35,814 nt of DNA from Bacillota bacterium (GTDB taxonomy: Bacteria > Bacillota > Clostridia > Oscillospirales > Acutalibacteraceae). A program made the translations under genes and the position numbers. Numbering within the stretch: the stretch's first letter is position 1; the number at the start of each line of letters is the position of its first letter. Positions 21,128 to 26,943 of this stretch are shown here, piece after piece. The stretch lies in NCBI GenBank assembly GCA_029008595.1, contig JAQXJH010000110.1, positions 1 through 35,814 on the forward strand, written 5' to 3'. Under the pieces are notes generated by a model. The model had not been told where the DNA came from. It searched no databases and worked only from the letters and a program-made list of their open reading frames with translations.

Positions 21128-23683
21128 ATGGAAGATCAGGAACTGGAACAAAAAATAGTCAACATCGGCATTGAAAAGGAAATGAAAAAGGCGTATCTTG
21201 CCTATTCCATGTCGGTGATCGTCGGCCGCGCGCTGCCCGATGTGCGCGACGGCCTGAAGCCGGTTCACCGCCGGATCCTTTACACGATGTACGAAAACAA
21301 TATCACGCCGGATTCCGCCTACCGCAAATGCGCCGATACCGTCGGTACCGTGCTCGGCCGCTATCATCCGCACGGCGACGCTTCGGTCTACGATGCGCTC
21401 GTCCGCCTTGCGCAGGATTTTTCGATGCGTTATCCGCTGGTGGACGGCCACGGAAACTTCGGCTCCGTTGACGGAGACCCGCCCGCCGCTTACCGTTATA
21501 CCGAAGCGCGCATGGGAAAAATGTCGGTCGATATGCTGACCGATATCGAAAAGGATACCGTCGAATTTCAGCCGAACTACGACGACCGCCTGAAGGAGCC
21601 GGTGTATCTCCCCTCCCGTTTTCCGAATCTGCTTGTCAACGGTTCCACCGGTATTGCGGTCGGTATGGCGACCAACATTCCGCCGCATAATCTTGCCGAG
21701 GTCATCGACGGCATGTGCTGCCTGATCGATAACCCGGACGCTTCGCTGGACGAGCTGATGGAACACATCAAGGGGCCGGATTTCCCCACCGGCGGCATCA
21801 TCATGGGCCGCAGCGGCATCCGTGCCGCCTACGCAACGGGCCGCGGCCGCATCTATCTGCGTGCGCGCGCGGAAATTGAAGAAGAAAAGAACGGCAAAGC
21901 GCGCATCATCGTCACCGAGCTGCCGTATCAGGTGAACAAGGCGCGCCTGGTGGAATCCATTGCCGAAATGGCGAAGGAAAAGCGCATCGAAGGGATCGCT
22001 TATGTCACCGACCATTCCGATAAGGACGGAATGTGCGTGGTCATCGACGTCAAGCGCGACGCTTCTCCGCAGATCGTGCTGAACCAGCTTTACAGCTATA
22101 CCCAGATGCAGGTGACGTTCGGCGTCATCATGCTGGCGATCGTCAACGACGAGCCGAAGGTGCTGACGCTGAAGGAGATCCTGCAGAACTATATCGATTT
22201 TCAGCTCGACGTCATTACCCGCCGCACCCGCTTTGACTTGCGAAAGGCGGAGGAACGCGAGCATATTCTGGAAGGCCTGATTGTTGCGCTCGATTTCATC
22301 GACGAGGTCATCTCGATCCTTCGCGCGTCCAAATCGGTTCCCGAAGGCAAAACGGCGCTGATGGAACGGTTCGGTCTGGACGATGCGCAGGCCGGCGCGA
22401 TCGTCGCCATGCGCCTTGGTCAGCTGACCGGGCTGGAGCGCGACAAGATTCTGGACGAATCGGCGCAGCTGAAAGAAAAAATTGCCGATTTCCGCGATAT
22501 TCTTTCCAGCGAGATCCGCCGCAAGGAGATCCTGCGCACCGAATCGGTCGCGATCCGCGACAAATACAAGGACGACCGCCGCACGGAGATCGCGTCCATC
22601 AGCGGCGAAGTCGATATCGAAGACTTGATCCCGCAGGAGGAATGCGTGCTGACGCTGACCAACTTCGGCTACGCAAAGCGCCAGCCGGTCGATACCTTTA
22701 CGGCGCAGCGCCGCGGCGGCCGTGGAATCACCGGCGTGGGACGCCGCGAGGAGGACGTTGCGACGGAAATGTTCGTCTGCAATTCGCACGATTATGTGCT
22801 GTTCTTTACGAACCTCGGCCGCGTTTACCGCCTGAAGGCCTACGAGATCCCGGAGGGAAGCCGCACCTCGAAGGGAATGAATATTGCCAACCTGCTGCCG
22901 CTGGCGCAGGAGGAAAAGATCACCTCGGTGATCCGTGTGCCGCAGTTTGAGGAGGATCGCTTCCTTGTGATGGTGACGCGCCGCGGCATCATCAAGCGCA
23001 CCGACCTTTCCGCTTACAACACGGCGCGCAAGGGCGGGCTGATCGCCATCGATCTGATGGAGGGCGACGAGCTGGCATGGGTGCGCATGACAAAGGGCGA
23101 AAGCGAGCTGCTGGTCGCGACCCGCAAAGGAATGGCCATCCGCTTTGCCGAAACCGACGTCCGCGGGATGGGCAGAACGGCGCGCGGCGTCAAAGCGATC
23201 ACGCTCGGCGAAGGCGACGAGGTGGTCGGCATGGCGGTGCTCCACGCCGGGCAAAAGGTGCTCACCGTTTCCGAAACGGGCTACGGCCGCCTTTCCCCGA
23301 TCGAAAACTACCGCATGCAGTCGCGCGGCGGCAAGGGCCTGAAGAATTACCATACCGAAAAATACGGCGAGGTCGCGACCGTTCTGGTGGTCGATCCGGA
23401 AAACGACGACGTGATCATCATTTCGTCCGACGGCGTGATCATCCGCGTCTGCGCCGGAGAGATCCGCGAATGCGCCCGTCCGTCCAAGGGCGTCAAGGTG
23501 ATGCGTCTGGCCGAAGACAGCCGGGTCGTCACGCTGGCCCGCGTTCCGCACGAGGAGGGCGAGGTCACCGAAACGATTGAGGACGACGGCAGCGACGCCG
23601 ACGAGGGCGCCGAAAGCGAGGCCGAAATGGAAGCCGAAGCGGCAGAAGAAACGGATGCCGCGCCCGAAGAGGAAGAACCATAA
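21128..23683 (+). CDS. gyrA: DNA gyrase subunit A
   Basis: [36 protein letters not shown], catalytic [10 protein letters not shown], GyrA-box QRRGGRG; acidic C-terminal tail. Confidence 0.98.
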
Positions 23684-23854: not shown

Positions 23855-25285
23855 ATGTCAAAAGTAAGATTCATTACGGCAATGGCTGCGGCAAAGGCAG
23901 CTCAGAATGTGCTGATCGCGGCAAAAAAGAATGCCGCGTGGCACCTGCCCGGCCGGGTCGCAAAAAAGATCATGCCGGATTTCCCCGGCGAAGAGCTGCA
24001 GCGGCCGAAAACGGTCATCGCCGTGACCGGTACCGACGGCAAGACCACCGTCTGCAACATGCTTTGCGACCTGTTCACCTCCATGGGGTACCGGGTGGTG
24101 TGCAACAACATGGGCTTCAATGCGCTCGACGGCATCAAGTCCATGCTGATTTACGGCTCCACCGTAACGGGAAAGCCGAAGGCGGATATCGGCGTGTTTG
24201 AGATCGACGAGCGCCGCACACGGCAGATGTGCGAGCTGCTGCACCCGCAGTACCTGATGGTGACCGGCCTGTTCCGCGATTCGGTCAACAACAACGCGCA
24301 CCCGGACTACATCGCCTCCATCGTCAGCAGCGGCATTCCGGCGGAAACGCAGCTGATCCTGAACGCCGACGATCTGATCTCTTCGCGGATCGCGCCGCAG
24401 GTGCCGCGCGAACAGAAGCACTTTTTCGGGCTGGACCGGCTGGAAAGCGACGTGACCCGGTGCGTGAATCTGGTCAACGACGCGCGCGTCTGCCCCGTCT
24501 GTCAGGCGCCGCTGGTCTACGATACGATCAAATACCACCATATCGGCCGCGCCCGCTGCGAAAAATGCGGCCTTGTGTCGGAAACGCCCGATGTGCTCGG
24601 CCGGCAGCCGGATCTGCCGAACAAAACGCTCACCATCCGCGAGGGAGAGACCGAAACGGTTTATCCGCTGGTGAACGACAGCATTTTCAATATGTACAAC
24701 GAAACGGCCATCATTACGCTGCTGCGCGCCATGGGTATTGCCCGCGAGCAGATTGCAGAGGCGTTTTCCAGACTGAAGGTGACCGAAACGCGCTATTCCC
24801 GCACCGAGGCCGGCTCGTGCGAGATCGTGACGCAGCTTGCAAAGGGCAAAAATTCGGTCGCCTGCTCGCGTGCGTTTGAGTACATCAAAAATCTGCCCGG
24901 CGAAAAGCAGCTGATCATCATGCTGGACGATGTGTTCGACCGCGCGTCCTCCTCGGAGGATACCGCATGGGTCTTCGACACCGATTTTGAATTCCTCAAC
25001 GATCCGCACATCCATAAGATCGTGATTGCCGGTGTGCGCCAGCGGGAATATCGCTTCCGTCTGTTGATGGCGGGCATCCCGGAAGAAAAGTTTGCCTGCA
25101 TCGACGACGAGCAGCAGACACCGGACTGCCTTTCCTACGGCGAACCGGAAATGCATTATTATGTGATCCATGAGATCTGGCACGCCAAGGTGGCGTTCGG
25201 TCTGCGCGACAAGATCCGCGAAAGGATCCTTGCTGCGGAATCAGGCGGCGCGGCGGCAGAAAAAGAAGAGGCTGCCGTGCGGTGA
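23855..25285 (+). CDS. murT: Mur ligase family protein MurT (lipid II isoglutaminyl synthase subunit)
   Basis: VIAVTGTDGKTTVCNMLCDLF P-loop, internal Cys4 zinc ribbon CPVC...CEKC, C-terminal DUF1727-like region. Confidence 0.9.
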   Translation: MSKVRFITAMAAAKAAQNVLIAAKKNAAWHLPGRVAKKIMPDFPGEELQRPKTVIAVTGTDGKTTVCNMLCDLFTSMGYRVVCNNMGFNALDGIKSMLIYGSTVTGKPKADIGVFEIDERRTRQMCELLHPQYLMVTGLFRDSVNNNAHPDYIASIVSSGIPAETQLILNADDLISSRIAPQVPREQKHFFGLDRLESDVTRCVNLVNDARVCPVCQAPLVYDTIKYHHIGRARCEKCGLVSETPDVLGRQPDLPNKTLTIREGETETVYPLVNDSIFNMYNETAIITLLRAMGIAREQIAEAFSRLKVTETRYSRTEAGSCEIVTQLAKGKNSVACSRAFEYIKNLPGEKQLIIMLDDVFDRASSSEDTAWVFDTDFEFLNDPHIHKIVIAGVRQREYRFRLLMAGIPEEKFACIDDEQQTPDCLSYGEPEMHYYVIHEIWHAKVAFGLRDKIRERILAAESGGAAAEKEEAAVR

Positions 25286-25342: not shown

Positions 25343-26059
25343 ATGAAAATTGAGATTCTGTATTCCGAAGTCTGTAATCTTGCCGGGGATTCCATGAACC
25401 ACCGGTATCTGAAAAAATGCCTTCCGCAGGCGGAATTCGTGTACACCGGGCTGAACGACTCCCCTGCGTTCGCTTCCGGCGGGGTGCAGATGGTATACCT
25501 TGGGCCGATGAGTGAACACACCCAGCAGCTGGTGATCGAACGGTTGACGCCTTACCGCGGGACGATTCTGAAGCTGATCGAAGACGGAACTGTGTTTCTG
25601 TTTACGGGGAACGCCGCCGAGGTGCTGTTTGAAGAAATTTCCGACTGCGATACCGGCGAAACGCTCAAAGGGCTGGGGATCCTGCCGTTTACGGCAAAGC
25701 GCAAGCTGTTCGACCGCTTCAATTCGCTGTTCCTCGGCGAATCCGAATGGGGTGAGATCGTCGGCTTCAAGCATCAGTTTACCCAATGGTACGGCGACAA
25801 CAGCGGCTGCAGTCTGGCCCGGATGGAGCGCGGCACGGGGATCAATCCCGAAACGCCGTTCGACGGGATCCGCCGCGGCAACCTGTTTGCCACACAGCTG
25901 CTCGGCTCGGTGCTTGTGCTCAATCCGCAGTTTACAAAATATCTGCTGACGCTGCTCGGCGCAGAACCGGAACTCGCGTTCGAAGACGCCGTCCGGGAGA
26001 TGTACCGGAACCGTCTGGCGGAATTCAAAAAGCCCGAAACGCAGTTCATCGGGCATTGA
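25343..26059 (+). CDS. GatD-like class I glutamine amidotransferase fold protein, glutaminase residues apparently missing
   Basis: MKIEILYSEVCNLAGDSMNHRYLKKCLPQAEF (NLxGDxxN motif of GatD), adjacent to murT; expected nucleophile-elbow region reads FLFTGNAAEVLF and expected His region reads GNLFATQLLGSVLVLNP. Confidence 0.75.
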   Translation: MKIEILYSEVCNLAGDSMNHRYLKKCLPQAEFVYTGLNDSPAFASGGVQMVYLGPMSEHTQQLVIERLTPYRGTILKLIEDGTVFLFTGNAAEVLFEEISDCDTGETLKGLGILPFTAKRKLFDRFNSLFLGESEWGEIVGFKHQFTQWYGDNSGCSLARMERGTGINPETPFDGIRRGNLFATQLLGSVLVLNPQFTKYLLTLLGAEPELAFEDAVREMYRNRLAEFKKPETQFIGH

Positions 26060-26085: not shown

Positions 26086-26127
26086 CCGGGTTTTCCACAA
26101 GGTTTTAAAACTCTGTGGAAAACCCGG
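26086..26127. repeat. 42-bp near-perfect inverted repeat containing two inverted TTTTCCACA sequences
   Basis: ccgggttttccaca-aggttttaaaactc-tgtggaaaacccgg; 14-bp perfect arms with further symmetry in the loop (gttttaaaac). Confidence 0.9.
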
Positions 26128-26160
26128 CATTCTTCCGGAAAGAGAAGGGAGCGCACGGCG

Positions 26161-26943
26161 TTGAAGACAGAGGAACTGAAACAATATCTGGAGCGGATCG
26201 GGCTGGGAGAGCAGTTTTTGCCGCAGAACGGACTGCCGCTCACCGGGGAAACGCTCAGCCGGATCCAGTCGGCGCAGCTGGCCGCGATCCCATATGAAAA
26301 TCTGGATCTGCTGCGGGGGATCCCGCTGAAGCTTTCCTCCGAAGCATTATTCGATAAGCTGGTGCTCCGCCGGCGGGGCGGGTACTGCTTCGAGGTCAAC
26401 GGGCTGATGGCCCATGCGCTGCGGGCGATGGGTTTTTCGGTCACGGAATACGCCGCCCGGATGCTGTTGGGCAAAACCGAGGTGCAGGCGCGGCGGCACA
26501 GGGTGCTGCGGGTGCGCGCGGAGGACGGCGATTTTCTCTGCGACGCGGGGATGAACCGGGAAATGCAGCGCATCGCGCTGCGCATGGAGCCGGGGCTGGT
26601 GCAGAGCGACGGCGTCGCGGAATACCGGCTGGAGCAGGATGAATTCTTCGGTTGGATGCTGTACCAGCGGCTTGCCCACCATGATTTCTGGCCGGTCTAT
26701 GCGTTTACCGAGGAACCGCAGACCGATCTGGATTACGAAATGCCGTCGTTCTGGTGCGAAAAGCACCCCGATTCCCCGCTGAACAAGATCAATCGGATCT
26801 CCATCGTGCGCGGGAAGGAGCATTTTTCCATGTTCGGCGACGAGCTGATCCGCTTTGCGGACGGAACCGTTCAGGAGCGGCGTCCGGTGGCAAAGGAAGA
26901 CCAGCCGGCGCTTTTTGCGGAGCTGTTCGGGATCGCGGATTGA
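26161..26943 (+). CDS. Arylamine N-acetyltransferase
   Basis: TTG start; RRGGYCFEVNGLMAHALRAMGF (Cys), RRHRVLRV (His), LCDAG (Asp) NAT triad positions. Confidence 0.92.
   Translation: MKTEELKQYLERIGLGEQFLPQNGLPLTGETLSRIQSAQLAAIPYENLDLLRGIPLKLSSEALFDKLVLRRRGGYCFEVNGLMAHALRAMGFSVTEYAARMLLGKTEVQARRHRVLRVRAEDGDFLCDAGMNREMQRIALRMEPGLVQSDGVAEYRLEQDEFFGWMLYQRLAHHDFWPVYAFTEEPQTDLDYEMPSFWCEKHPDSPLNKINRISIVRGKEHFSMFGDELIRFADGTVQERRPVAKEDQPALFAELFGIAD

Follow-up and report, generated by a model that had tools for sequence, protein, structure and literature searches.

What does a murT-gatD gene pair do when its GatD appears to have lost the residues of a glutaminase? This question is raised by a contig of a Bacillota bacterium of the family Acutalibacteraceae (GenBank assembly GCA_029008595.1, contig JAQXJH010000110.1), the whole 35,814-nucleotide stretch of which is referred to here as the window. 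An earlier note, made from the letters of the window, had claimed that the gene immediately downstream of murT is GatD-like, and similarity search, fold and gene order uphold this. The reading frame of the gatD-like gene, with its ATG start and stop, is as given earlier; the two genes are adjacent, and MurT carries MurT_C and Mur ligase middle domains. In phmmer searches, the GatD-like protein matched S. aureus GatD (5n9m/6gs2, E about 2e-11) and streptococcal GatDs (E 1e-4 to 7e-4), and NCBIfam GatD models matched it at 2.5e-12 and 2.9e-7, with scores far under the curated equivalog cut-offs (47.1 vs 450 bits and 30.1 vs 400 bits); no Pfam match was obtained for this protein. Its AlphaFold2 model (pLDDT 92, pTM 0.90) had S. 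aureus GatD 5n9m as the top match among solved structures (Foldseek E 8.6e-20, TM 0.85), and phmmer, AlphaFold2 and Foldseek agree on the GatD fold, which is a CobB/CobQ-like glutaminase fold. By sequence and modelled fold, the product is a true, divergent GatD. Read by eye, a gyrA-like gene and an arylamine N-acetyltransferase-like gene flank murT-gatD (Table 1).

Table 1. Features of the window and of related loci; handles beginning with L denote loci outside the window
Feature	Position	Strand	Basis or remark
gyrA-like gene	21128-23683		read by eye
murT-like gene, 476 aa Mur ligase with GatD-like partner	23855..25285	+	Pfam MurT_C 1.2e-22; S. aureus MurT 7q8e E 3.7e-41
MurT P-loop GTDGKT, residues 59-64	24029..24046	+	catalytic Lys present
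MurT loop RDSVNNNAH, residues 141-149	24275..24301	+	equivalent to S. pneumoniae loop 135-143 facing GatD
MurT Cys4 zinc ribbon CPxC...CxxC, residues 213-238	24491..24568	+	four Cys present
MurT Asp369, third triad residue (S. aureus D349, S. pneumoniae D355), kept	24959..24961	+	alignment
gatD-like gene, 238 aa pseudo-glutaminase	25343..26059	+	ATG 25343, stop 26059; phmmer, AlphaFold2/Foldseek
Pro55, at oxyanion-hole Gly60 position (S. aureus numbering)	25505..25507	+	alignment to S. aureus GatD
TGNAAE motif, residues 88-93, in place of ICGGYQ	25604..25621	+	alignment
Arg125, equivalent to S. aureus GatD R128 (glutamine capture), kept	25715..25717	+	alignment
Leu187, at catalytic His189 position (S. 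aureus numbering)	25901..25903	+	alignment
Arylamine N-acetyltransferase-like gene	26100-26943		read by eye
Second MurT/GatD pair of the source genome (contig C117)	L002:638-2772	-	Cys and His missing from GatD
murE genes of the source genome, mDAP motif DNPR and atypical SNSPRFE	L294:1201-2712, L278:1447-2898		
EctB-like diaminobutyrate transaminase by or near Cys-less pairs	L071:2659-3957, L090:2940-4187, L038:468-1784		
ATP-grasp (PF14397) loci	L038:3169-4167, L055:3054-4049, L060:6279-7382, L056:2889-3908, L093 copy		
Fused canonical MurT and GatD, Ellagibacter	L175:448-2859		one reading frame

Alignment to S. aureus GatD placed Gly89 at the position of the nucleophile Cys94 and Asn90 at that of G95, and put Leu187 at H189; the absence of the nucleophile and the replacement of the catalytic His by Leu, both proposed earlier, were thus confirmed. 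The alignments put no other Cys or His in register with the site. In the AlphaFold2 model, the nucleophile-elbow arrangement is preserved, with strand 84-88, helix 89-95 and the Gly at the turn. The loss of the oxyanion Gly, the retention of the capture Arg, and the clade-wide scale and repeated origin of the change had escaped the earlier note. The window pair resembles the MurT/GatD lipid II isoglutaminyl synthase of S. aureus, S. pneumoniae and S. pyogenes (PDB 6gs2, 6fqb, 9sq9) in its murT-gatD order, ligase core, Cys4 zinc ribbon, GatD fold and capture Arg, but differs from it in lacking the nucleophile Cys, catalytic His and oxyanion Gly, in a changed GatD-facing MurT loop, and in having TGN[AS]xE for ICGGYQ. 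Judged by these residues, the pair belongs to the MurT/GatD fold family but lacks the features that define a glutaminase. Papers on MurT/GatD emphasise the conservation of Cys and His (PMC5871853, PMC3266927), and no description of a Cys-less GatD class was found in the literature searched, an absence that does not itself prove novelty.

The ligase core of the window MurT is intact. MurT residues K59, N85, E110, D112, E113 and R304 (S. pneumoniae numbering) were invariant in 111 of 111 MurTs beside Cys-less GatDs, and K59, N85 and D112/E113 are required for the activity of S. pneumoniae MurT (PMC6085368). The zinc-ribbon Cys residues were invariant across the Cys-less set of the window's family. 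The change of N to D at residue 61 is nearly unique to the window copy, and the third-triad Asp is gone from most relatives, being D in 12 of 56.

The loss is clade-wide. Among 200 genomes of the Acutalibacteraceae, 71 had MurT_C, at 75 places, and 73 distinct GatDs were read, comprising 16 canonical proteins with Cys and His, accompanied by the MurT Asp, and 57 Cys-less proteins, with Gly (55) or Ser (2) at the Cys site, no His in any of them, and a mostly conserved TGN[AS]x[ED] motif. Counted by genome, the Cys-less type occurred alone in 55 of the 71 (two of which were typed by the MurT tree, their GatD not having been read on the contig), the canonical type alone in 16, and both in none. 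In a careful MurT tree of the family, a well-supported branch (100/95) set the canonical sequences, together with those of S. aureus and S. pneumoniae, apart from the rest, and the Cys-less MurTs comprised subfamily A, which includes the window, subfamily B and one divergent pair; the window MurT is a long branch, and two divergent family members form a separate one. Scores against a profile of the Cys-less MurT alignment separate the types too poorly for a census by score only. The loss of all glutaminase residues, together with the long branch of the window MurT, might suggest a decaying or purely regulatory remnant with no catalytic output, but this is highly improbable given the clade-wide retention, the conserved TGN[AS]xE motif, dN/dS values of 0.05 to 0.18 for the estimable pairs (the remaining pairs being saturated at synonymous sites) and the maintenance of duplicate copies within one genome. 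The dN/dS values therefore indicate that the Cys-less pairs are working genes; with the family-wide conservation, they also rule out sequencing error, chance or local decay.

Residues were further tallied over three groups, with 66 canonical and 114 Cys-less GatDs. The oxyanion Gly60 was present in 65/66 canonical vs 2/114 Cys-less proteins, and the capture Arg128 in 65/66 and 105/114, respectively. In S. aureus GatD, free glutamine is bound by R128, without which there is no glutaminase activity (PMC5871853); its retention without hydrolysis suggests that a ligand is still bound by Cys-less GatDs, the capture site of which is still under constraint. The MurT loop 135-143, which faces GatD in S. 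pneumoniae (PMC6085368), has changed from the canonical RDQxDR[FY]GE to RD[QS]xxRN[GA]H in the Firmicutes Cys-less type, with Asn at 141 in 70/72 and His at 143 in 63/72, and the actinobacterial Cys-less loop is without Arg135. Both large clades, Firmicutes and Microbacteriaceae, have lost Cys94 and the oxyanion Gly60. His189 was lost in all 73 Firmicutes Cys-less GatDs vs kept in 31 of 41 actinobacterial ones, and because most Microbacteriaceae copies retain His189 and MurT D355, the two clades lost the glutaminase site in different ways.

The actinobacterial copies came from a family whose wall chemistry has been described. In type B walls of the Schleifer-Kandler types, an amino acid sits on the alpha-carboxyl of D-Glu, the same carboxyl that canonical MurT/GatD amidates, and diaminobutyrate (Dab) is a wall amino acid of several Microbacteriaceae. 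A scan of named genomes with MurT included at least about 10 true MurTs, the general GTNGKT motif having drawn other matches as well; in Cryobacterium shii (Microbacteriaceae), LAVGTGWELL replaces LAICGGYQLL. Of 60 Microbacteriaceae genomes sampled, 47 had a GatD match, and a Cys-less copy was present in 41 of these 47, the canonical type alone in six and both types in two; that this is a type B family is taken from papers on its described members. For example, the peptidoglycan of Clavibacter is B2gamma, with D-Dab linking D-Glu to D-Ala, although some of its muropeptides have amidated D-Glu (PMC9603630), and those of Rhodoluna and Subtercola are B2beta (PMC4156110) and B2gamma (PMC5945732), respectively. 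Two of the 41 genomes (G237 and G259) had odd, non-actinobacterial-looking pairs (L330 and L331), possibly from contamination or transfer. In an order-level control that included Microbacteriaceae, 16 of 19 genomes with MurT were canonical and three, including C. shii, Cys-less. Erysipelotrichaceae, in which Erysipelothrix and Holdemania are type B (PMC4062643), gave 26 canonical and 16 Cys-less loci in a family survey; beyond this count, the genome RUG14838 had two Cys-less pairs.

A MurT tree of 106 rows contained two changes of Cys state, with support of 100 for the actinobacterial clade and 99 for the Firmicutes clade, and a quick MurT tree from wider class sampling gave about six Cys losses, made up of two radiations and four small losses, in some of which the His was retained. 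On these trees, the loss of Cys in Firmicutes is independent of that in Microbacteriaceae.

We propose that the pair consists of a MurT ligase and a pseudo-glutaminase that couple an amino acid, instead of glutamine-derived ammonia, to D-Glu, a reading to which we assign a probability of roughly one half. With ATP, MurT would activate the alpha-carboxyl of the D-Glu in stem position 2; its substrate, we infer, is a lipid-linked precursor of the wall, as it is in S. aureus. Its GatD-like partner would no longer generate ammonia from glutamine but would be structurally obligate, probably binding the amino acid through the retained capture Arg. Through its amino group, the bound amino acid would become attached to D-Glu, giving not D-isoglutamine but a D-Glu that bears an amino acid at its alpha-carboxyl, for example the residue that begins a type B (2 to 4) bridge. 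This reading was built on the observed loss of glutaminase residues, the ligase core, the clade-wide conservation, the repeated origin and the co-occurrence with type B walls. Of the options raised in the earlier note, a different function in the wall is the best supported, given that this loss has become fixed in a family of which the peptidoglycan bears an amino acid at the alpha-carboxyl of D-Glu. The ATP-dependent activation of a carboxyl is shared with MurC to MurF, the use of an amino-acid nucleophile being the likeness proposed here; unlike those ligases, MurT has no N-terminal UDP-binding domain and requires a GatD-like partner, and the carboxyl extended would be the alpha and not the gamma one. 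No enzyme is known to us that makes the type B bridge on D-Glu, and none was found in the literature searched. Tentatively, and at somewhat lower confidence, we suggest that Cys-less MurT/GatD may be this missing enzyme: it would add to the D-Glu alpha-carboxyl the amino acid with which the bridge starts, Actinobacteria and Firmicutes having each, by convergence, turned an amidotransferase into an amino-acid ligase. Counter to the amino-acid reading are the six canonical-only Microbacteriaceae genomes and the two with both types, the mixed Erysipelotrichaceae, the amidated D-Glu of Clavibacter, and, in the window genome, a DNPR MurE without diaminobutyrate transaminase.

The earlier note had also suggested free ammonia. 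In this reading, MurT would amidate D-Glu as an ammonia-dependent isoglutaminyl synthase, GatD being structural only. S. aureus MurT paired with the laboratory mutant GatD C94G can still use NH3 or NH4Cl to amidate lipid II at pH 8.5 (PMC3266927, Table 2), and GatD is needed whatever the nitrogen donor, MurT without GatD being inactive (PMC3266927); since C94G GatD supports MurT, a dead GatD can serve, and the partner is needed structurally. The natural replacement of Cys is mostly Gly, the identical change to that in C94G, although the natural proteins have also lost the His, the oxyanion Gly and other residues of the pocket, and purifying selection acts on them; this replacement, like the intact ligase core, fits ammonia-dependent amidation. 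Amidation by NH3 with C94G GatD was seen solely at pH 8.5, however, the C94G complex with ammonia being inactive at pH 7.5 (PMC3266927). In addition, the ammonia model leaves the retention of the capture Arg unexplained and does not account for the change having become fixed in Microbacteriaceae, whose target carboxyl bears an amino acid; we consider this model, the chief rival of the amino-acid reading, rather unlikely. The amino-acid nucleophile is favoured over free ammonia because of the type B correlation, the kept capture Arg, the altered loop that lies between the two sites and the link with Dab.

This last link comes from neighbouring genes. A diaminobutyrate-2-oxoglutarate transaminase gene adjoins or is near murT-gatD in four subfamily A loci, and EctB-like genes by or near Cys-less pairs are listed in Table 1. 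Counted over whole genomes, subfamily A had the transaminase in 16 of its 31 genomes, as against 14 of the 169 others and none of the 16 canonical genomes (Fisher p 8e-8, with genomes counted as independent despite their relatedness). This coincidence, together with Dab being a wall amino acid of several Microbacteriaceae, is suggestive but no proof, and diaminobutyrate is a candidate for the coupled amino acid only in those relatives that encode its transaminase. Five subfamily A pairs have beside them an ATP-grasp protein (PF14397, associated with sugar transfer), which in some cases is accompanied by an asparagine synthetase and an aminotransferase. Such neighbours, and the separate long branch of the two divergent family members, might indicate that the pair has left peptidoglycan for another substrate, such as a lipid-linked sugar or an intermediate of capsule or secondary metabolism; but MurT shows no variation at the acceptor-carboxylate Asn (N85) or at the residues that bind Mg and ATP, and the neighbours of one Cys-less subfamily (helicase, comF-like and mreB-like genes, by sequence) are those found at canonical loci, suggesting an orthologous position, so that a substrate outside peptidoglycan seems improbable. 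A diamine-adding role, as in Selenomonas, was set aside, no MurT_C having been detected in the one Selenomonadaceae genome searched.

In the source genome of the window (2.28 Mb, 161 contigs, 99.1% complete), a second MurT/GatD pair was found on contig C117, and no further pair. It belongs to another subclade of subfamily A, with 40% identity to the window pair in GatD and 33% in MurT, and its GatD reads TLATGNAFELFG and ATYLLGPLL, both Cys and His being missing. No intact GatD was found in the assembly in a search to E 10; within the limits of the assembly, this excludes a second, intact gatD, the C117 copy being itself Cys/His-less. Two murE genes are present in the genome, of which one encodes the mDAP motif DNPR and the other the atypical SNSPRFE, and several relatives have MurEs of the DN[SC]RFE type. 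The MurE motif was uninformative as to type B walls, DNPR or DN[SCP]RFE occurring in canonical and Cys-less genomes alike. Diaminobutyrate transaminase was absent from the source genome at the threshold used, and with this and the DNPR MurE, type B cross-linking in the window organism is uncertain; the combination of an mDAP-type and a second, atypical MurE suggests that its product may be a side-branch instead of a bridge.

A murT-gatD pair is commonly taken as a marker of D-isoglutamine peptidoglycan, an inference that may fail because many pairs of Clostridia and most of Microbacteriaceae are without the glutaminase residues. Substitution of D-Glu influences NOD sensing and susceptibility to lysozyme and beta-lactams, and organisms carrying Cys-less pairs include gut commensals. 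The Cys-less murT-gatD thus offers a specific gene pair to test for type B bridge building.

Other variants of the pair were also observed. One genome (G398; loci L391 and L392) has a canonical pair and a second pair in which GatD has Gly for Cys and keeps the His; two GatDs (L379 and L383) keep the Cys and have Asp for the catalytic His; and in Ellagibacter, a canonical MurT and GatD are fused into one reading frame.
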